From IMG/VR virus record IMGVR_UViG_3300029258_003820, positions 1-32,424 of that record: a stretch of DNA of 32,424 bases; one strand, given 5' to 3'. This document shows, piece by piece, positions 5,012-27,799 of the stretch; position 1 is the stretch's first letter; each line of letters starts with the position of its first letter. Source of the stretch: a virus. The translations under genes were made by a program, and so were the position numbers. The notes beneath the pieces were generated by a model. The model did no database searches and was not told the DNA's origin. It was given only the letters and a program-made list of their open reading frames with translations.

Positions 5012-7780
5012 ATGAGCGACGAATGTCATGATGCATGTAAGGGTGAGACCGGAATCCAGGGGATCAGAGGCCCTGTAGGACCAACTGGCGATACAGGAGA
5101 TCAAGGTCCTCAAGGGCAATCCGTGCAGGGGCCGAGAGGCGAAAAAGGATCTGTCGGTATGACCGGTGTACGTGGCATTGGGTGTCGAGGTCATACCGGA
5201 GTACAAGGAGAGATTGGGTTAGCCAATTTTTTGGATACCACATCTTTCCCATCCCCGGCCGGAGATCAACCAATACTGATGTGGGATCAGACCGACGAAG
5301 CCTTATATGCAGCATCAAGCGTTTCCGCTGTACCCGAGTGGATACAGATATCAGCGGGGTCAAGTCAAGGTGCTACCGGTATCAATGGCCTGACTGGTAT
5401 TCAAGGTGATCAAGGTGACAAAGGTGTGACCGGTCTTGTCGGTCTCGGAACAACAGGTATTGATGGTATCCAGGGTGACACAGGTATTAAGGGTGATGTT
5501 GGAAATCAAGGTGTGACCGGTCTTATGGGTCATGATGGAGAGACAGGTATTATTGGTCTTACAGGACATACAGGTATCCAAGGTCTCGGCCTGACCGGAT
5601 TACAAGGCATTAAGGGTGATACTGGTATTATTGGATTACAGGGGTTAACCGGTCTTGTAGGACTCGGTATGACTGGTCTGATAGGATTAACTGGCGAGAC
5701 CGGAATCCAAGGTCTACAAGGTCTGACAGGTCTGCAATGTAATCAAGGTGAGACCGGAATCCAAGGACTGACCGGTATCTTAGGTATTGATGGACAAACA
5801 GGTATACAAGGTCTCCAAGGACTGACCGGTATCTTAGGTATTGATGGACAAACAGGTATACAAGGATTAACAGGTGAGACAGGGATATTAGGTCTCCAGG
5901 GAGTTACTGGTCTTGGGGCTGAACAGGTAGCATCAGAAGTACCAATGGATTTTATCGGTACCCCTGGTTATACTGAGGTCCAGGCCTGGAGTAATGGAGT
6001 ACAATCTGCCGGAGTTATAGATGGCGGTGTAATTACTGATGGCGGGTCCGGGACTATTAATATATCTGCTATTGAGGGCATAGTCAAAACGTCTGATAGC
6101 ACAGTAGGTGCCAATGTCTTTTTTGACACGACAGCGGTTACAGGTCTTACTCTGACCGACGAGGTAACAAATTACGTGTCCGTTGATTATAATGGCGGCA
6201 CCCCCATATTAACCGTAGCCACATCAAATACGTCAAACGGCCATACAACTTTTAATCTTGGTAAAGTGTTCCGCGAGGGCACAAGCATTGATATCATTGA
6301 TTCCGGCCTTAATATTTATGATTTCCAAAAGCGCGTGCAACAGCATCATGTCGAGGATGTTGCGCTTGAGTTTACTTCCGGGGCTAAAGTAACTGAGACC
6401 GGTACGCTTAATATAGCTATTTCTGCAGGTGTGTTGTATGCTGGTCTCAACCGTATTGTTACAGACGCAATTGACACGGCAGTAGCAGATGATTTTGAGT
6501 ACTATTACTATACCGGAGCGGCCTGGACCGAGAGCGATGCTACTACAATTAATAACACACAATACAATGACGTTGCAACAGGCTTAGTTGAACTTAATAA
6601 TAACCAGTATGGTGTGCATTGGGTTTACAAGGGGACAAATTCCTCGACCTATGTTATATACGGCCAGGACAGTTATACTCTCAACGATGCGCAAAACGCT
6701 CAACCCCCAGTATCCTTACCAGAGCATGTGTCCGGATTTGGCGTGCTACGGGCAAAAATCATAATCGAAAAAGGGGCTACAGTTTTCACGGAAATCGAAT
6801 CGGTCGAGGACATATCGTTTTCTTCAGGATCTGCTGCCAATCATAACGAATTAGGCGGCCTGCAAGGTGGAATAGCCGACGAATATTATCACTTAACGGC
6901 CGATGAGCATACAAGCATAACCGGTAATCCAACAGGTATTCAAGGCCTCCAGGGTGTGACCGGAATCCAAGGTGACACAGGTATCCAAGGCCTTGGAGTT
7001 ACCGGACTACAAGGTATCAAAGGTGACAGAGGTCTGACAGGGTTTTATGGCCTTACCGGTGTGTATGGTCTCACAGGTGATACGGGTGATACAGGAATCC
7101 AAGGTCCCGTAGGTCCGAGAGGTTTGACAGGATTTTATGGTCTGACCGGGGTATATGGTCTCACAGGTGATCAAGGTGAAACAGGTATTATAGGTCCTGC
7201 AGGTCCGAGAGGTGTGACGGGTTTCTATGGCCTTACCGGTGTGTACGGTCTCCAGGGAGTGACTGGTTTACAGGGTATCCAAGGTGATCAAGGTGACAGA
7301 GGTCTGACAGGATTTTATGGCTTGACCGGAGTCCACGGAGTGACCGGTCTGATAGGCTCTACGGGAGTTATAGGTACTAAGGGTGATAGAGGTCTGACCG
7401 GTTTCTACGGTCTGACCGGCGTATATGGTGAGACTGGATTACAAGGCCTGACTGGTATTACAACACCGGTTAATGTCTATACGACCTCCACGGCCACTAC
7501 TCTGATCCCTGATTGCACATCTTATCATAGATATGTGGTTAATGCTCTTGCTACTGACATGACCGTAGCGGCCCCGACAGGTACCCCATATGACACACAA
7601 TTACAGTGGTTCCGATTTTTGAGTACTACAGATGTTAATCTTGAGTGGAATGCAATCTATGCCGCTGGCGGAGTTGATCTGCCTACGACCGCAACGGACT
7701 CAAAAAATGTGTTTACGGGGGTATCTTATGCATCTGATACAACTAAATGGTACTGTATAGCTCAGGTCTCGGAGGAATAA
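5012..7780 (+). CDS. Large collagen-like tail fibre
   Basis: This 922-residue fibre has a modular build. Residues 10-70 are Gly-X-Y repeats. Residues about 71-117 form a globular insert (WDQTDEALYA, EWIQISAGSSQG). Residues 118-302 are Gly-X-Y repeats that are poor in Pro and rich in Thr, Ile, Leu and Gln. Residues about 303-638 are a beta-rich phage tail domain ending in HNELGGLQGGIADEYYHLT, a motif common in phage tail proteins. Residues 640-815 are Gly-X-Y again, built on an exact 30-residue super-repeat. The C-terminal ~105 residues (LEWNAIYAAGG, LPTTATDSKN, WYCIAQVSEE) resemble a widespread tail-fibre end domain. It is likely a trimeric receptor-binding shaft. One repeat Gly is replaced by Cys (GLQCNQGETG). 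Its stop overlaps the next ATG. Confidence 0.85.
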   Translation: MSDECHDACKGETGIQGIRGPVGPTGDTGDQGPQGQSVQGPRGEKGSVGMTGVRGIGCRGHTGVQGEIGLANFLDTTSFPSPAGDQPILMWDQTDEALYAASSVSAVPEWIQISAGSSQGATGINGLTGIQGDQGDKGVTGLVGLGTTGIDGIQGDTGIKGDVGNQGVTGLMGHDGETGIIGLTGHTGIQGLGLTGLQGIKGDTGIIGLQGLTGLVGLGMTGLIGLTGETGIQGLQGLTGLQCNQGETGIQGLTGILGIDGQTGIQGLQGLTGILGIDGQTGIQGLTGETGILGLQGVTGLGAEQVASEVPMDFIGTPGYTEVQAWSNGVQSAGVIDGGVITDGGSGTINISAIEGIVKTSDSTVGANVFFDTTAVTGLTLTDEVTNYVSVDYNGGTPILTVATSNTSNGHTTFNLGKVFREGTSIDIIDSGLNIYDFQKRVQQHHVEDVALEFTSGAKVTETGTLNIAISAGVLYAGLNRIVTDAIDTAVADDFEYYYYTGAAWTESDATTINNTQYNDVATGLVELNNNQYGVHWVYKGTNSSTYVIYGQDSYTLNDAQNAQPPVSLPEHVSGFGVLRAKIIIEKGATVFTEIESVEDISFSSGSAANHNELGGLQGGIADEYYHLTADEHTSITGNPTGIQGLQGVTGIQGDTGIQGLGVTGLQGIKGDRGLTGFYGLTGVYGLTGDTGDTGIQGPVGPRGLTGFYGLTGVYGLTGDQGETGIIGPAGPRGVTGFYGLTGVYGLQGVTGLQGIQGDQGDRGLTGFYGLTGVHGVTGLIGSTGVIGTKGDRGLTGFYGLTGVYGETGLQGLTGITTPVNVYTTSTATTLIPDCTSYHRYVVNALATDMTVAAPTGTPYDTQLQWFRFLSTTDVNLEWNAIYAAGGVDLPTTATDSKNVFTGVSYASDTTKWYCIAQVSEE
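5761..5865 (+). repeat. 54-bp tandem duplication inside collagen-like fibre gene
   Basis: Bases 5761-5811 recur unchanged at 5815-5865, an offset of 54 bp (18 codons). Each copy encodes Q-G-L-T-G-I-L-G-I-D-G-Q-T-G-I-Q-G. The lack of synonymous change points to a recent slippage or recombination event that lengthens the fibre shaft. Confidence 0.85.
7041..7430 (+). repeat. 30-residue super-repeat array in collagen-like shaft
   Basis: The segment holds five occurrences of G-[LV]-T-G-F-Y-G-L-T-G-V-[YH]-G. The first four are each followed by filler that brings the period to exactly 30 residues (90 bp), ending in GPR or GDR; the fifth is partial. The DNA has diverged between copies while the aromatic positions are kept, so this array is older than the 54-bp and 81-bp duplications. 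Confidence 0.85.
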
Positions 7781-8937: not shown

Positions 8938-9513
8938 CTATGCCAATGCCTCGGAGACAAAGTAGTCGTCTTCTTTTTTTCTGGGCTTGAGCATTTTGAT
9001 GATATATTGATTCTTTTTGTTTTTGTAGACGTGGTAGAACTTGAACTGGGAGTTGGTGCCTGAGTAGACCTCTTCCCATCCTCCGTCCTTAGTAATTTCC
9101 AGAAATCGTCCCATGGTAACTCTTTTGACGCCATACTGACCTGCCTTAATATTACTATCACTTGGTATACGTAAGGTCGGGAAAATCATCCCTTTTACAT
9201 GTTCTATTTTCCTGTTTTTTCTCTTTTTTTCTGCACAGGCCGGGCACAAAGGGCGCGAGCAATCGGGCTTATATCTCTGACCGCACTCTGTACAATTACG
9301 CCAGGGGAATCTATAGATAGCAGCATCGCCGAAGGCGCGCATCTGATGTTTGTTTTTTGTAAATCCGCAATCACTCTTTGTGGCCTGATGGATATTTCTG
9401 ATATAGTCAAAAGGCCTTTTGACGTATACATCTGACATCTCACAATGAGCGCATACCGGTCCAGGACCGGTAATTGGCTCCCCACATTTCTGACATTCTT
9501 TTTCTTTCCCCAT
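8938..9513 (-). CDS. Zinc-ribbon protein of the leftward accessory locus
   Basis: This 191-residue protein has two Cys-pair zinc-binding units. The first is near the N-terminus (CQKCGEPITGPGPVCAHC, residues 8-25). The second, at residues 73-92, has pairs CTEC and CPAC around a basic loop and is followed by KKRKNRK. A separate C-terminal domain of about 80 residues (YGVKRVTMGRFLEITKDGG, FYHVYKNKKNQYII) is predicted alpha/beta. The arrangement suggests nucleic-acid or protein binding, for example an HNH-like or zinc-ribbon regulator, but no H-N-H catalytic set is visible. It is the first gene of the only leftward unit. The ATG lies 5 bases after a TATAAT box, with no Shine-Dalgarno. Confidence 0.65.
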   Translation of the reverse strand: MGKEKECQKCGEPITGPGPVCAHCEMSDVYVKRPFDYIRNIHQATKSDCGFTKNKHQMRAFGDAAIYRFPWRNCTECGQRYKPDCSRPLCPACAEKKRKNRKIEHVKGMIFPTLRIPSDSNIKAGQYGVKRVTMGRFLEITKDGGWEEVYSGTNSQFKFYHVYKNKKNQYIIKMLKPRKKEDDYFVSEALA

Positions 9514-10529: not shown

Positions 10530-10886
10530 ATGGAAGATAACCCTTATAAATTATGTGTAACGTGCGAGTGGTGGGCCTTAAACGGCCAAAGATGTGTTAG
10601 GAAGGCTCCGACCAGGGATTTGGATCAGAGGGCTGTATGGCCCGTTACCGGACCTCTGATGAAATGTGGTGATTGGGAAACGTGTTCGGATAAAAACGAG
10701 TTGTTAAAACGGAAGATAACCTTACAGGAGATATCAATGGATAACCAAGAAAAAAAGGATAAAAGAGTATGGACACATGAGGAAATCATGCTATTATCTA
10801 AGGAAAATAAGGTCAGAGTATTACAGGATATAAACTCTGGCCGGGCCGCATTTCGTGAAACAAAAAATCCTTATGATAGGAAATAG
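10530..10886 (+). CDS. Small Cys-cluster protein (CxxCxWW type) with a charged C-terminal half
   Basis: This 118-residue protein uses the ATG at 10530, with AAGGAG 5 bases upstream; a GTG at 10524 inside the Shine-Dalgarno is unlikely. Residues 9-50 carry C-x-x-C-x-W-W ... R-C-V-R-K-A-P ... M-K-C-G-D-W, a small metal-binding pattern shared with the 60-residue protein at 13898. The second half (from MDNQEKKDKRVWTHEE) is helical and charged and begins at an in-frame ATG (10738) with its own AGGAG, so an internally started short product is possible. The function is unknown. Confidence 0.6.
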   Translation: MEDNPYKLCVTCEWWALNGQRCVRKAPTRDLDQRAVWPVTGPLMKCGDWETCSDKNELLKRKITLQEISMDNQEKKDKRVWTHEEIMLLSKENKVRVLQDINSGRAAFRETKNPYDRK

Positions 10887-10889
10887 TCC

Positions 10890-10918
10890 TTTACTTTTTG
10901 TATTAAATATGCTATTAT
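10890..10918 (+). promoter_or_regulatory. Promoter of the structured leader / replication genes
   Basis: TTTACT (10890-10895), a 17-bp spacer and TATTAT (10913-10918). The -10 region reads TATTATTTAAATAA, nearly the same as that of the promoter before the portal gene (TATTATTTAAGTAA at 19199). Transcription is expected to start near 10925. Confidence 0.65.
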
Positions 10919-10924
10919 TTAAAT

Positions 10925-11054
10925 AAGCCAGGCTTGATCACCTGGTCCTACATTATGGCACTTAAAGAGAGAGGGCTTCGGCCTTCTCTCTCCGCTTCCT
11001 CACAAAGGCGGAAGCACTGTAGGTTAAAGGCCAAAAAGCGGACGGGAAGTGCCA
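10925..11054 (+). ncRNA. Candidate structured RNA with pseudoknot (leader or small RNA)
   Basis: Five perfect or near-perfect helices can be drawn. Ha: CCAGG 10928-10932 with CCTGG 10941-10945. P1: CCTACA 10947-10952 with TGTAGG 11018-11023. P2: TGGCACTT 10956-10963 with AAGTGCCA 11047-11054. Hb: 11 bp with one G-U, 10966-10976 with 10981-10991, closed by a C(UUCG)G tetraloop. Hc: GCTTCC 10994-10999 with GGAAGC 11010-11015. P1 and P2 interleave (5'P1-5'P2-Hb-Hc-3'P1-3'P2), which is a pseudoknot. It begins right after a promoter and no credible protein gene occupies it. I do not recognise an RNA family; the order is close to but not that of HDV-like ribozymes. It may be a free small RNA or part of the 265-nt leader of the ATPase gene. 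Confidence 0.55.
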
Positions 11055-11150
11055 ATTAACTTCTCTTCTCAAAAATCAGAGTTACCATAAAATGCCAATG
11101 TTATAGCCATATCTACTCATAATTGGGCTAAACATTACTTAGAAGACGGC

Positions 11151-11189
11151 AATAACTCATTCCACTAACCTTTTTTAGGAGGAGTTATT
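11151..11189 (+). promoter_or_regulatory. Shine-Dalgarno-masking hairpin of the ATPase gene
   Basis: AATAACTC (11151-11158) pairs perfectly with GAGTTATT (11182-11189), which ends at the base before the ATG at 11190. The Shine-Dalgarno AGGAGGAG (11177-11184) lies partly in the stem and partly in the loop. Folding would limit translation of the replication ATPase. Confidence 0.45.
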
Positions 11190-12428
11190 ATGCCCGATAA
11201 GCTTTCTGAGGCAATGCTGTTAAGAGGTGCTCTCGACAAATCAATTGAAGAATTACAGCAGAAAAATCCAGCTCCATTCGATGACTTATGTAAGCAACTT
11301 GCAGTGATGGATAAAGATGGGCAAGCTGAGTTCCCTGAATTTAAAAAGGGGAAAAATTACTGGATAGACGAGACGTTACAAAAAAGAGACGTATTTATGG
11401 AAGGTCTAATGGAGAGAGGTGATGTAGTATCGTATAATGCCCCATCGAAAGCCAGAAAAACTTTTGACGGCGGAATATGTTTATCTCTGTGTTTAGCAGG
11501 TGGAATACCTTGGCATGGAATACAAATTCCTAAAAAGCTCCGTGTAGGTTATATAAACTTTGAACTCAGAGAGAGAAATTTCAGGTCCCGAGTACGAAAG
11601 GTAGTTAAAAGCCTGGAAAAAGAGGGCTTTGATGTAAATGACATGGACAACTTGATGGCTTTTCATCTCAAGGGAATCATGATAGATACAGAGTCAGCTA
11701 TGATATACTTTCGAAAAATCATCCAGGAACATAAGATAGATATCCTGATGATCGATCCTTTTTATAAATTTCTTAATTCCCGAGACCGGAAAGGTCTGGA
11801 CGAAAACAGTACTGGAGACATGGAATACATCATAACCCGTCTCAATGCCCTCACTACATGTGCTACACAAGGTTGTACAATCTATTGGCTGGATCACTAC
11901 ACTAAATCTAACAGGTCTAACTTAAAGGCTATGGATCGTATGGCTGGAAGTGGTGTAAAGGCCAGGGAACCTGACTGCATCATGTCTATGACCGAACTTA
12001 AAAGTGATTCTGATGAAGAAGAGGTTGATTCCTGCCCAGATAATTTCAGACTCGAATTCACCCTAAGGGACTTCGCACCAAGACCTCCAATCGGTCTGAC
12101 CTGGGACTTTCCAATGTATAGGGTTAATGATTCTCTCAATGATCAGAAACTTGCAGGAGAGGCTGGAAGACCTAAAGTAAAACTCTCTTACGATAAACTC
12201 GTGGAACGATTTAATGCGTTAAGGGATGGATCAACAACAGTACCTATTGAGGAAACAGGAATTGGTCGGGCAACACTTTATGGTATTATTGCTGACGCAA
12301 AGAAATCCGACTCAAACACATATGATTTTAAAATTATTAAAAGGAACCTTATTGGCAAGGCACCATACAAATCATCCCCAAAAACTGAGCAAGAAAAGAA
12401 CATTGAATTTAAATTGGAAGACTTCTAA
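11190..12428 (+). CDS. RepA-like / AAA_25-type replication ATPase (helicase)
   Basis: This 412-residue RecA-fold ATPase is likely the replicative helicase or helicase loader, working with the primase-polymerase encoded downstream. The Walker A variant is NAPSKARKTF (about residues 83-92). An acidic strand follows (GYINFEL, with Glu in the catalytic-base position). Walker B is DILMIDPFYKF (about 184-194). An IYWLDHYTK segment (about 231-239) matches the H-x-x-K element of RepA-type hexameric helicases. MAGSGVKAREPD and the following beta strands complete the core. The last ~90 residues look like a helix-turn-helix region (PIEETGIGRATLYGIIADA) with a charged tail. Length and motifs fit RepA/AAA_25 proteins. 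It has a strong AGGAGG but a masked start region. A double-hairpin repeat follows its stop. Confidence 0.8.
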   Translation: MPDKLSEAMLLRGALDKSIEELQQKNPAPFDDLCKQLAVMDKDGQAEFPEFKKGKNYWIDETLQKRDVFMEGLMERGDVVSYNAPSKARKTFDGGICLSLCLAGGIPWHGIQIPKKLRVGYINFELRERNFRSRVRKVVKSLEKEGFDVNDMDNLMAFHLKGIMIDTESAMIYFRKIIQEHKIDILMIDPFYKFLNSRDRKGLDENSTGDMEYIITRLNALTTCATQGCTIYWLDHYTKSNRSNLKAMDRMAGSGVKAREPDCIMSMTELKSDSDEEEVDSCPDNFRLEFTLRDFAPRPPIGLTWDFPMYRVNDSLNDQKLAGEAGRPKVKLSYDKLVERFNALRDGSTTVPIEETGIGRATLYGIIADAKKSDSNTYDFKIIKRNLIGKAPYKSSPKTEQEKNIEFKLEDF

Positions 12429-12431
12429 TAA

Positions 12432-12545
12432 CCCCAGTCCAGAGTCTAAAAACATTATATATACATATAGACTGGACTGTGACTAAAAAAAGACCTCCAA
12501 TAGGTCGGCTTTTATTTAGTCTAAAGGATTTTGGACACATGGACA
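12432..12545 (+). repeat. Double-hairpin module, copy A
   Basis: This 114-bp copy is nearly identical to 14065-14176. Hairpin 1: GTCCAG-ag-TCTA (12437-12448) pairs with TAGACTGGAC (12468-12477), with a 2-base bulge and an AT-only-rich loop. Hairpin 2: GACTAAA (12481-12487) pairs with TTTAGTC (12515-12521), enclosing AAAA/TTTT and GACCT/AGGTC. TAGACT of hairpin 1 can alternatively pair with AGTCTA at 12518-12523, so two folds compete. It lies between the ATPase stop and the start of the ribbon-helix-helix gene. A GTG-initiated frame runs through it, but I treat it as non-coding. Confidence 0.75.
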
Positions 12546-12562
12546 CTACGAAAGGAAAAAAC

Positions 12563-12748
12563 ATGAAATTCAAAAACGAAGAACAATACGAAGAAGATTT
12601 ATATGGTGAAGAGTATGGATGTAAAGTAGTAACTAAGATACCTGCAAGGGTGTATGATCAGTTGGAAGGACTGGCTTATGAAAAAAATATTACTATAGGT
12701 GAGACAGTAACAGAAATCCTTAAATGGTGGGAGGACAAACATGCCTGA
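12563..12748 (+). CDS. Second ribbon-helix-helix-like protein
   Basis: This 61-residue protein uses the ATG at 12563 (GAAAGGA upstream). The GTG at 12479 would add the translated hairpin module and is rejected. An acidic N-terminus (MKFKNEEQYEEDLYGEE) is followed by the strand CKVVTKIPARVYDQL, then a helix (LAYEKN), the turn ITIGETV, and the second helix TEILKWWEDK. This matches the ribbon-helix-helix order (strand, helix, G-x-S/T-turn, helix). It overlaps the primase-polymerase start by 8 bp, so it may control or couple to it. Confidence 0.6.
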   Translation: MKFKNEEQYEEDLYGEEYGCKVVTKIPARVYDQLEGLAYEKNITIGETVTEILKWWEDKHA

Positions 12749-13901
12749 TATTAAAACTGACCTAAAATACCTTTTCTCTCAGAACCTGCAGCTTTTTCCA
12801 GCATGCACTATAATGATCAAGAACTCCGAAGGAATGATGAAGAAGATCCCTATATTCGGGCCAAAAGGTTCTGACCTGTCCAGGTGGGCTTCTGTTACTC
12901 ATACACCTGAAACATTCAAAGAACGTAGGGATGCGTTAAATAAAGCTGACCGGGCTGTTAATACAGTGTGTTTGGCAACGGGAGAAAGATCCGGGATCGA
13001 TGTTATAGATGAAGATGTCTTCGAAGGGTCTAAGGCACAGGAACTACTAAAAAAATATGCCCCCGAGTTACTTGAGCTCGGACCGATGGTCAGAACTCCA
13101 AGTGGTGGATTTCATTATTGGTGCAAACACTCTGAGTGGACCCGAACAATGGCCAAAGATGGTTTGGACATTCGTGCAGATGGAGGGCTGGCAATAATTC
13201 CTCCCTCATCTAATAAAAAAGGATCCTATACTTGGTTGAGACCTTTCACCTGTGTTGACGATCTTCCAGATTTTCCACTGGGTCTGATAGGTTATTTAGG
13301 TGGTTTAAAGAAAGGCCGAAGGAGCACAGCCCCTAAAACTGAACACAGTAGGAAGACCTTAGATGAAATTAATAACGATTTATGCGCCTTATCTTCAGTA
13401 AAATGGGGATATGATGAATGGCTGAAGATTATATGTGCCTTATGGACAGAGTATGAATATGATGAAACAATCGATATGCTGAAAAAATGGTTACCAGAAC
13501 AGGAATTCGGTGAGTACGAGCGAAAGTATAATAGCCGGATATTGGAAGGAATAACTATGGGAACATGGAATTATTATGTGCATAAAGCTACAGGATACTC
13601 AATAAGTGGTAAAATGGAGGAGGATTACACACCAAAAACAGTTAAATCAGTACAAGAAAAGGTCATTACTGAACCGAAAGCAGTCGAAGAGGTGCAGGTA
13701 GTGCAAGAAAAAGCAGTTGAACTTAAACAGGAGGTTAAATTGGATAATACCAAAAAGGAAGAAGAAACAGAATTGACTGTACCTGAATTTATGTGGGGAT
13801 TAAAATGTAATCATGCAACAGTTGAATCTCGAAATGCTTTGATGAGTATTATTTTTGGGGAAGGTAATTTTAAACCAGAGCTGAAAGGAGAATTAGCATG
13901 A
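12741..13901 (+). CDS. Primase-polymerase (archaeo-eukaryotic primase type)
   Basis: This 386-residue protein is expected to synthesise primers for phage replication. The N-terminal Prim-Pol-type domain (residues ~15-190) shows SRWASVTHTPE near 50-60, the catalytic strand GIDVIDEDVF (~90-99), TPSGGFHYWC (~120-129, Gly-Gly-x-H motif) and DIRADGGLAIIPPS (~143-156). A second helical domain (~210-295, WGYDEWLKIICALW, MLKKWLPEQEFG) resembles the PriCT module common in phage primases. The rest is a charged Glu/Lys/Val linker and a short C-terminal domain. There is no fused helicase; that job probably falls to the RepA-like ATPase upstream. The stop overlaps the next ATG. Confidence 0.8.
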   Translation: MPDIKTDLKYLFSQNLQLFPACTIMIKNSEGMMKKIPIFGPKGSDLSRWASVTHTPETFKERRDALNKADRAVNTVCLATGERSGIDVIDEDVFEGSKAQELLKKYAPELLELGPMVRTPSGGFHYWCKHSEWTRTMAKDGLDIRADGGLAIIPPSSNKKGSYTWLRPFTCVDDLPDFPLGLIGYLGGLKKGRRSTAPKTEHSRKTLDEINNDLCALSSVKWGYDEWLKIICALWTEYEYDETIDMLKKWLPEQEFGEYERKYNSRILEGITMGTWNYYVHKATGYSISGKMEEDYTPKTVKSVQEKVITEPKAVEEVQVVQEKAVELKQEVKLDNTKKEEETELTVPEFMWGLKCNHATVESRNALMSIIFGEGNFKPELKGELA

Positions 13902-14080
13902 CATGCAATTCATGTAAATTTTTTCTGCAATTAGGACCTGTTTATGGTAGATGCAAAAGATATCCACCTCAGGCACCTGAAAAAGAGTTTGGTGTACCAA
14001 AATTTTTGATACTACCAAATTCTGAGTGGTGTGGTGAATATAGAGCAAAACCTAACAAATCATCCCCCAGTCCAGTCTAA
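13898..14080 (+). CDS. Small Cys-cluster protein (CxxCxFF type)
   Basis: This 60-residue protein (MTCNSCKFFLQLGPVYGRC..., SEWCGEY) has C-x-x-C-x-F-F near the N-terminus, G-R-C-K-R-Y-P-P in the middle and W-C-G-E-Y near the end. This looks like a four-Cys metal site and is common in small phage proteins. It shares the pattern with the protein at 10530. The ATG overlaps the primase-polymerase stop (ATGA). Its last codons lie inside hairpin 1 of repeat copy B, so the terminal PSPV residues are encoded by the repeat. Confidence 0.6.
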   Translation: MTCNSCKFFLQLGPVYGRCKRYPPQAPEKEFGVPKFLILPNSEWCGEYRAKPNKSSPSPV

Positions 14081-14176
14081 AAACATATATATATAAATAG
14101 ACTGGACCGTGACTAAAAAAAGACCTCCTAAAGGTCGGCTTTTATTTAGTCTAAAGGATTTTTGGACACATGGACA
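14065..14176 (+). repeat. Double-hairpin module, copy B
   Basis: This 112-bp copy matches 12432-12545 apart from a few indels and loop changes. Hairpin 1 is perfect here: GTCCAGTCTA (14070-14079) pairs with TAGACTGGAC (14098-14107) over 10 bp. Hairpin 2 is 14111-14151 (GACTAAA/TTTAGTC outer stem, GACCT/AGGTC inner stem). The start overlaps the 3' end of the 60-residue Cys gene. Both copies sit upstream of a GAAAGGAAAAA Shine-Dalgarno. Confidence 0.75.
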
Positions 14177-14722: not shown

Positions 14723-15057
14723 CCGAAGGAGATGGGTCTGGGAATGTGCACGAGTCTGGAAATGGGTCTGGAAATGGGTCTGGATACGGGTTTGGGTCTG
14801 GGGACGGAGATGGGTACGGAACCGGGTCTGGGTTTGGGTCTGGGGACGGGTCTGGTTCTGGGGACGGGTACGGAGATGGATACGGGTCTGGGGGTGGGTT
14901 CGGAGATGGGCACGGGTACGGAGAGGGAAATATAGTTGAAAGAGAAAAAATAGAATTAAATATTTTAAATAATCTCAAGGATTCTGAACTTCCTCTCTTT
15001 ATGACCTGGGAATTTCCTGGAAACAGAGACCACTTCGAAAAGAGATTAAAAGTTTGA
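14719..15057 (+). CDS. Gly-rich repeat protein (GSG/GDG/GYG)
   Basis: This is a 112-residue protein. Residues about 4-72 are nearly strict G-x-G dipeptide repeats with x = S, D, Y, F, N, T or H (for example GDGYGTGSGFGSGDG). The C-terminal ~40 residues are an ordinary helix-plus-strand segment (NIVEREKIELNIL, LFMTWEFPGNRDHF). Similar low-complexity Gly-repeat proteins occur in other phage genomes, with no function I know of. The start is coupled to the mini-ORF stop. The repeat is encoded by GGGTCTGG-like units, and the coding strand can form a canonical G-quadruplex. Minus-strand Pro/Ser-rich frames here are shadows. Confidence 0.6.
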   Translation: MTEGDGSGNVHESGNGSGNGSGYGFGSGDGDGYGTGSGFGSGDGSGSGDGYGDGYGSGGGFGDGHGYGEGNIVEREKIELNILNNLKDSELPLFMTWEFPGNRDHFEKRLKV

Positions 15058-15705: not shown

Positions 15706-15742
15706 AAAAGGTCCGAAAATTAACTTTTTCGGACCTTTTTTT
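15706..15742 (+). terminator. Rho-independent terminator of the early block
   Basis: GGTCCG (15710-15715) pairs with CGGACC (15730-15735), extended by AAAA/TTTT on both sides of the stem and followed by a T-tract to 15742. The A-tract upstream makes it potentially bidirectional. Confidence 0.9.
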
Positions 15743-16699: not shown

Positions 16700-17008
16700 A
16701 TGATCCCAGAATTAACTACTATAGGTGATGTTGTAGCAATCAAGCCGGACATACCACCTGACCGGACCCCTGGAGGTATATACTACCCAGAGGTCGAAGA
16801 CATGATGCTCAACGAGGAGCAATCAGGTGTCCGAGAGGGTGTTATACTATCAGCAGGACCTGATTGTGGAACTCTTAAGGTAGGTGACCGGGTAATGTAT
16901 CACAAATCACAGTGTGCTCCATGGGATTTCTCTGCCCCGGAATGTGAGACACCAGAGATCGTGCAATTTTTGCATGAGCATGAAGTCCTCGCTTTGTTGG
17001 AGACTTAA
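16700..17008 (+). CDS. GroES-like co-chaperonin
   Basis: This 102-residue protein has the length and landmarks of the Cpn10 family. The opening strand is IGDVVAIKPD. The mobile-loop segment has a G-G-I-hydrophobic tripeptide (TPGGIYYPE, GGIVL in E. coli GroES). The core is REGVILSAGP and LKVGDRVMYHK. The closing strand is HEHEVLALLE, matching the E-x-D/E-I-L-A-I-V end of GroES. It would cap the host GroEL during folding of phage proteins, as gp31 of T4 does. Its position directly before the large terminase (TAATG overlap) suggests help with capsid or terminase folding. The Cys/Trp-containing segment CAPWDFSAPEC is an addition not found in GroES. Confidence 0.75.
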   Translation: MIPELTTIGDVVAIKPDIPPDRTPGGIYYPEVEDMMLNEEQSGVREGVILSAGPDCGTLKVGDRVMYHKSQCAPWDFSAPECETPEIVQFLHEHEVLALLET

Positions 17009-26824: not shown

Positions 26825-27799
26825 ATGGCTGAAATCATACAATTAAGACGCGATACATCTGCTAACTGGAATTCCTCGGACCCAATTCTTGCACAAGGTG
26901 AAATGGGTATTGAGCTTGATACATCACAAGCCAAGATAGGTGATGCCGAGTCTACCTGGTCCGAGTTACCTTATTGGGCTTTCGGATCTACAGGTATTCA
27001 AGGTCTGACTGGTTTACAAGGCATTAAGGGTGATACTGGTATTATAGGTCTGACCGGTGAGACTGGAATCTTAGGTCTTCAGGGCGTGACCGGTATCCTC
27101 GGTATAGATGGTGTGACCGGATTACAAGGTATCCAAGGTGAGACTGGAATCTTAGGTCTTCAGGGCGTGACCGGTATCCTCGGTATAGATGGTGTGACCG
27201 GATTACAAGGTATCCAAGGTGGAACTGGAATCTTAGGTCTTCAGGGTAGTACAGGTATTAGGGGTGTGACTGGTATTGTTCCAATTTCTGACACATTTAA
27301 TCCTATGCCAGCAGTTACAAGTACCGTCTCGCTACATTGGTCAGAGACCGATGATGCCTTTTATGCCGGTGTAACCGGTGCGGTTGGTAAATGGGTCCAG
27401 ATATCGGCTGGTAGTATGAGGGGTGTGACCGGTATTAGAGGCGACTCTGTAAGTTTAAATTTTTCATCATCGGCTCCTATAGGAGCTGTTGCTACTGGAA
27501 TTATGGGTCAGGCAACTATCCCATTTAATTGTGAGTTTGATTCATGGCAATTATTATCGGACAAGACCTGTAACATAGAGGTTGATTTCGAAAAAACTGA
27601 TTATGCGTCTTATCCGTCTTATACTAATGTGCATGGATCTACAGGTCTTTATATTGAGGATAATGTTAAAAATTCAGGAACTCCGACCTGGTGGTCAAAT
27701 GCTACGGCGTCTGCTGGTGATATAGTTAAAGCGACATTAAGGGGCTCTGATGCAACAGCAACAAATATATCGCTTAATATTGGTTATAAATCAACATAA
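26825..27799 (+). CDS. Collagen-like tail fibre with MEIQLRR-type N-terminus
   Basis: This is a 324-residue protein. Residues 1-55 (MAEIIQLRRDTSANWNSSDPILAQGEMGIELDT, KIGDAESTWSELPYW) form the phage fibre N-terminal domain seen in Mtd-like and many tail fibres. Residues ~56-155 are Thr/Leu/Ile-rich Gly-X-Y repeats with an 81-bp tandem duplication. A globular insert (SLHWSETDDAFYAGVTG, KWVQISAGSMRG) resembles that of the 922-residue fibre. The last ~110 residues (IMGQATIPFNCEFDSWQLLSDKTCNIEVDFE) are a beta-sandwich tip. It is probably trimeric. Confidence 0.82.
   Translation: MAEIIQLRRDTSANWNSSDPILAQGEMGIELDTSQAKIGDAESTWSELPYWAFGSTGIQGLTGLQGIKGDTGIIGLTGETGILGLQGVTGILGIDGVTGLQGIQGETGILGLQGVTGILGIDGVTGLQGIQGGTGILGLQGSTGIRGVTGIVPISDTFNPMPAVTSTVSLHWSETDDAFYAGVTGAVGKWVQISAGSMRGVTGIRGDSVSLNFSSSAPIGAVATGIMGQATIPFNCEFDSWQLLSDKTCNIEVDFEKTDYASYPSYTNVHGSTGLYIEDNVKNSGTPTWWSNATASAGDIVKATLRGSDATATNISLNIGYKST
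27056..27217 (+). repeat. Exact 81-bp tandem duplication in fibre gene
   Basis: Bases 27056-27136 and 27137-27217 are identical over 81 bp (27 codons, nine Gly-X-Y triplets). A third, partial and altered copy starts at 27218. The absence of synonymous change shows the duplication is recent. Confidence 0.9.

Follow-up and report, generated by a model that had tools for sequence, protein, structure and literature searches.

A candidate structured leader RNA before the helicase and primase genes of an uncultured P22-like phage

In cis-acting translational operators and leaders of the riboswitch type that have H-type pseudoknots, the ribosomal-protein leaders being an example, the regulated gene is preceded by a folded domain and then by a ribosome-binding site that is itself folded. 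Phage HK022 uses the put antiterminator RNA, with hairpins at the start of the phage early transcript. HDV-like (delta, theta) ribozymes show the crossing order P1-P2-hairpin-P1'-P2'; a G opens P1, just after the cleavage site, and P1.1 pairs the P3 loop with the bases that follow the P1 3' strand. Such ribozymes are known in phages, where they adjoin tRNAs, and their catalytic C is the first position of J4/2 (PMC10879173). Structured RNAs of AT-rich genomes tend to sit in long GC-enriched gaps, a signature that is used for finding them (PMC8632094). The locus compared here with these systems is a domain of 130 nt (10925-11054); its significance as a candidate structured leader RNA is moderate, and its pseudoknot and function are unproven.

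The window analysed is a whole 32.4-kb virus record (IMGVR_UViG_3300029258_003820, 32,424 nt), the contig of a P22-like phage. It encodes a P22-type portal (PF16510, E 1e-170 in Pfam), the coat protein PF11651 and a phage large terminase. The nearest relatives by terminase and portal show about 40-53% identity to the contig proteins; L122, the nearest phage by both genes, has a replication module unrelated to that of the contig. A small Cpn10-like protein (16700-17008; PF00166, E 1e-4) adjoins the terminase gene, and its counterpart occupies the same place in L122. Two tail-region proteins (5012-7780, PF01391 with E 1e-55, and 26825-27799) carry long collagen-like repeats (GLTGLQG, GITG). On the minus strand, 8938-9513 is an isolated ORF of 191 aa that has several CxxC pairs and no Pfam match; it sits where the + strand shows no convincing genes.

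The candidate lies in a gap of 303 nt (10887-11189), the second longest of the contig, which is preceded by a run of small same-strand genes and in which no ORF on either strand reaches 50 aa. On its 3' side come, in order, an AAA_25 helicase, a small ORF and a Prim-Pol primase. Helicase and Prim-Pol are separate at 11190-13901, and in the nearest helicases the matched part lies in one large primase/helicase gene; the replication module of this contig seems to be split into helicase and primase genes. The features of the region are as follows.

10890-10918, + strand: promoter-like site TTTACT-17-TATTAT with TG before the second hexamer (consensus scan, 9/12)
10927-10932/10941-10946, + strand: P0, 5' hairpin GCCAGG/CCUGGU, 6 bp with one G-U
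10947-10952/11018-11023, + strand: P1, uncertain pseudoknot helix, 5' strand CCUACA and 3' strand UGUAGG, 6 bp, all Watson-Crick
10956-10963/11047-11054, + strand: P2, 5' strand UGGCACUU and 3' strand AAGUGCCA, 8 bp, all Watson-Crick
10966-10976/10981-10991 (whole 10966-10991), + strand: H3, hairpin with UUCG loop, 11 bp with one G-U
10994-10999/11010-11015 (whole 10994-11015), + strand: H4, hairpin GCUUCC/GGAAGC, 6 bp
11137-11210, + strand: predicted hairpin enclosing the helicase Shine-Dalgarno (11177-11184) and start codon (z -3.3, 6/1000 shuffles as good)
11190-12428, + strand: helicase gene (AAA_25), the first gene after the putative leader (PF13481, E 3e-15; phrog_2597 DNA primase, E 4e-33)
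12741-13901, + strand: primase gene (Prim-Pol; PF09250, E 4e-13)

The preliminary description had reported five helices in 130 bases, and all of them are there, at the coordinates listed above. Some of their strands have competing partners: a 7-bp pairing (10991-10997/11006-11012) overlaps H4 as an alternative, 11036-11042 is an equally good partner for 10991-10997, and 10980-10985 can pair with 11027-11032. The nested fold exceeds chance expectation. Compared with dinucleotide shuffles it has a z of -3.9 for 10915-11060 and of -3.6 for 10925-11054, where 4 of 1000 shuffles equal it. This nested part is unusual for the contig as well: when all 130-nt segments of both strands are ranked by the folding energy that remains after regression on GC, 10901-11030 comes third. 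This segment folds well on its minus strand, too. The domain reaches 53% GC in a contig of 42.5%, and its flanks within the gap are AT-rich, with 16% on the upstream and 33% on the downstream side. In Rfam 15 no family reaches its gathering threshold in the window, and with lax filters up to E 10 the best match in the leader has E 3.4, with 15.6 bits vs a threshold of 80. The domain was initially presented as an unrecognised RNA, and Rfam indeed gives no credible match at either setting; its folding energy and its enrichment in GC, together with the lack of an Rfam match, support a structured and hitherto unrecognised element in noncoding sequence behind a plausible promoter.

The evidence for a pseudoknot between P1 and P2 is much weaker than that for the nested fold. 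The preliminary description held that crossing pairs of 8 and 6 bp, together with the other stems, would be improbable. The chance rate, taken from 4.35 million strand-bases of other loci, does not bear this out for the bare crossing pairs: about 11 crossing pairs of at least 6 and at least 8 bp enclosing a hairpin are expected per contig of equal size, and seven further crossing pairs with a hairpin inside occur in the window itself. The full architecture, defined by post hoc filters as two hairpins inside, of which one has 10 bp or more, plus a criterion of P1+P2 stability or of loop length, is expected 0.03-0.06 times per window. The lower value is obtained when P1+P2 must be at least as stable, and the higher one when a first loop of at most 3 nt replaces the stability filter. 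Given P2, H3 and H4, a 6-bp P1 appears in 3% of shuffles with Watson-Crick pairs and in 12% when G-U is allowed. Crossing loops of 3 and 23 nt make the pseudoknot sterically plausible, and on this one sequence it may form. When the entire leader is given a nested fold, the P2 strands take other partners, which is better by 3.8 kcal/mol, so that P2 would be retained only if the stacking energy of P1 repays this amount.

The position of the domain relative to transcription signals was then considered. A phage promoter had been proposed at 10890-10918; the site is a plausible consensus match, but such sites are not above chance in the region, 26 being found vs 20.0 +/- 4.3 in shuffles. The scan found no + strand terminator-like site in 10887-12492, hence none from the domain to the helicase gene; terminator-like hairpins follow downstream at 12492-12506, 14122-14136 and 15706-15739. 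As none lies between domain and helicase, a transcript from 10890-10918, where we infer that transcription starts, or from the upstream genes would carry the domain as a leader. At the other end of the gap the helicase start site is predicted to be folded, with a Shine-Dalgarno pairing probability of 0.83-0.87, the third highest among 23 gene starts tested.

The reading that we tentatively favour is translational control by a bound factor, with 10924-11189 serving as the 5' untranslated leader of the helicase/primase operon of the phage. Its first 130 nt would form a compact domain, in which a 5' hairpin is followed by P2 closing over the UUCG-capped hairpin and the second hairpin, with P1 as a possible pseudoknot; its last part would be the hairpin that takes in the helicase ribosome-binding site. 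The most likely job of such a leader would be cis control of helicase translation, the folded domain being bound by a host factor or by a replication protein of the phage, possibly the helicase or primase itself. Leader control is favoured because no terminator-like site lies in between and because the helicase start site is itself folded; a folded domain together with a folded ribosome-binding site is the anatomy of a translation-controlling leader, which argues for a cis-acting operator. That the downstream genes are a replicative helicase and a primase also supports this reading, as do the folding excess and high GC of the domain and the lack of longer ORFs in the gap. Counting against it are the single sequence, a promoter that is a consensus match only, the replacement of P2 by other pairs in the nested fold of the leader, and a start-site hairpin predicted to be unaffected by P1 and P2. 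In nested secondary-structure models, no alternative pairing exposes or hides the start site, and the Shine-Dalgarno pairing is 0.87 whether P1, P2 or neither is forced. The presumed coupling between domain and start site is therefore the weak link of leader control. Compared with known translational operators and riboswitch-type leaders, the locus has no mutually exclusive pairing of domain and start site, no Rfam match and no relatives found. The earlier suggestion of a control RNA for the downstream ATPase gene is the one we retain, with no start-site switch visible in these secondary-structure models.

Relatives of the domain were searched for by several methods, in collections that may omit records very near the window, so that an empty result is absence of evidence. 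Matches of 10880-11200 by blastn against 50,697 phage records were all of chance level (E at least 1). No relatives of the helicase were found in IMG/VR or GTDB contigs, nor of the primase in IMG/VR. Sequence-pattern scans covered IMG/VR and GTDB. The exact pattern CTGTAGGTTAAAGGCCAA recovered no relative, nor did CCTACA-gap-CTGTAGGTTAAAG; the pattern CCTACA-gap-TGGCACTT-gap-TGTAGG gave 17 matches, none of which has the P2 3' strand, and TGGCACTT-gap-GGGAAGTGCCA gave a single match within a coding ORF, which is not a relative. A covariance model, insensitive as it was built from one sequence and with P1 left out (pseudoknots not being allowed), matched only itself among 91 sources and had no match in 47 phage records or about 900 bacterial genomes. 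If real, the domain would be a folded leader that regulates the replication operon in a P22-like phage not yet cultured; RNA-level control of replication genes is little described for such phages. At present it is a single candidate with no relatives found, and its value is that of a lead for testing. A bolder proposal, that phage leader RNAs with a pseudoknot form a novel class here, which senses a replication protein or metabolite and controls the split helicase/primase module, seems to us quite unlikely.

A serious rival, if an unlikely one, is that the segment has no RNA function at all. The helices would then result from chance and from DNA-level features in a gap beside replication genes: an operator palindrome at the promoter start, an inverted repeat serving as replication origin or protein-binding site, or remnants of inter-module recombination. 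Several observations agree with this. Bare crossing helices are common, P1 has a chance probability of 0.03-0.12, no homologue that keeps the helices was found, and the minus strand folds as DNA inverted repeats would. P0 is a near-palindrome at the position of the expected RNA 5' end, that is at the expected transcription start, and could alternatively be a DNA operator. Against chance and DNA-level features stand the nested fold energy, which so few shuffles reach, the low expectation of the full architecture per contig, and a UUCG-capped stem in a GC island, which are typical of RNA.

A discrete trans-acting small RNA, transcribed from 10890-10918, ending by processing at about 11055-11070 and targeting for example a host or phage mRNA or a protein, appears improbable. 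The promoter-like site directly before the domain and a compact fold with closed ends would suit it, but the + strand offers no terminator-like site in 10887-12492 and the gap runs on into the folded helicase start site. We are still more doubtful about a put-like antiterminator, in which RNA polymerase, bound by the folded 5' end of an early transcript, would read through the terminators that follow in the operon. The position fits, with hairpins in front at the very start of the phage transcript, as in put of HK022, and the three terminator-like hairpins downstream; the form does not, since the domain is longer and larger in its fold than put, with a long-range helix and a possible pseudoknot, and Rfam searches reveal no sequence relation to known elements.

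A self-cleaving ribozyme of HDV-like topology, a likeness drawn in the preliminary description from the similar order of the crossing strands and in keeping with the known occurrence of such ribozymes in phages, is hardly credible: the crossing order is present but a second, additional hairpin intervenes before P1', the first base of P1 is a C (10947) preceded by U where G is required, the UUCG loop of H3 and the UU after the P1 3' strand leave no P1.1, no clear P4 exists in 11024-11046, so that neither J4/2, despite a C at 11043, nor the catalytic junction can be placed, no tRNA is nearby, Rfam yields no match even with lax filters, and the match to a loose HDV-like descriptor carries no weight, since 186 of 248 contig segments fit it. 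With an alternative P1, GGCACUU at 10957, making a P2 would require breaking H3.

Other repeated and folded elements were observed downstream of the helicase. A direct repeat of 84 nt, 90% identical, is present at 12449-12532 and 14079-14162, each copy containing a GACCTCC..GGTC hairpin and a T-rich flank; an inverted repeat, GTCCAGTCT/AGACTGGAC, surrounds the repeat hairpin at 14070-14107. The strongest fold of the contig, 13981-14110 on the minus strand, is explained by this repeat with its hairpin and inverted repeat. ORFs starting in the 84-nt repeat (12479, 14109) share the N-terminal peptide VTKKRPP.GRLLFSLKDF, so that both may begin within a regulatory element that is repeated. A tandem repeat based on 6 nt (GGGTCTGG-type) at 14733-14933 lies in an ORF and encodes a Gly/Ser/Asp-rich stretch. 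The hairpin at 15706-15739 is a strong intrinsic-terminator-like one, with 14 bp and a T tail, at the end of the early region and ahead of the gene for the small terminase.
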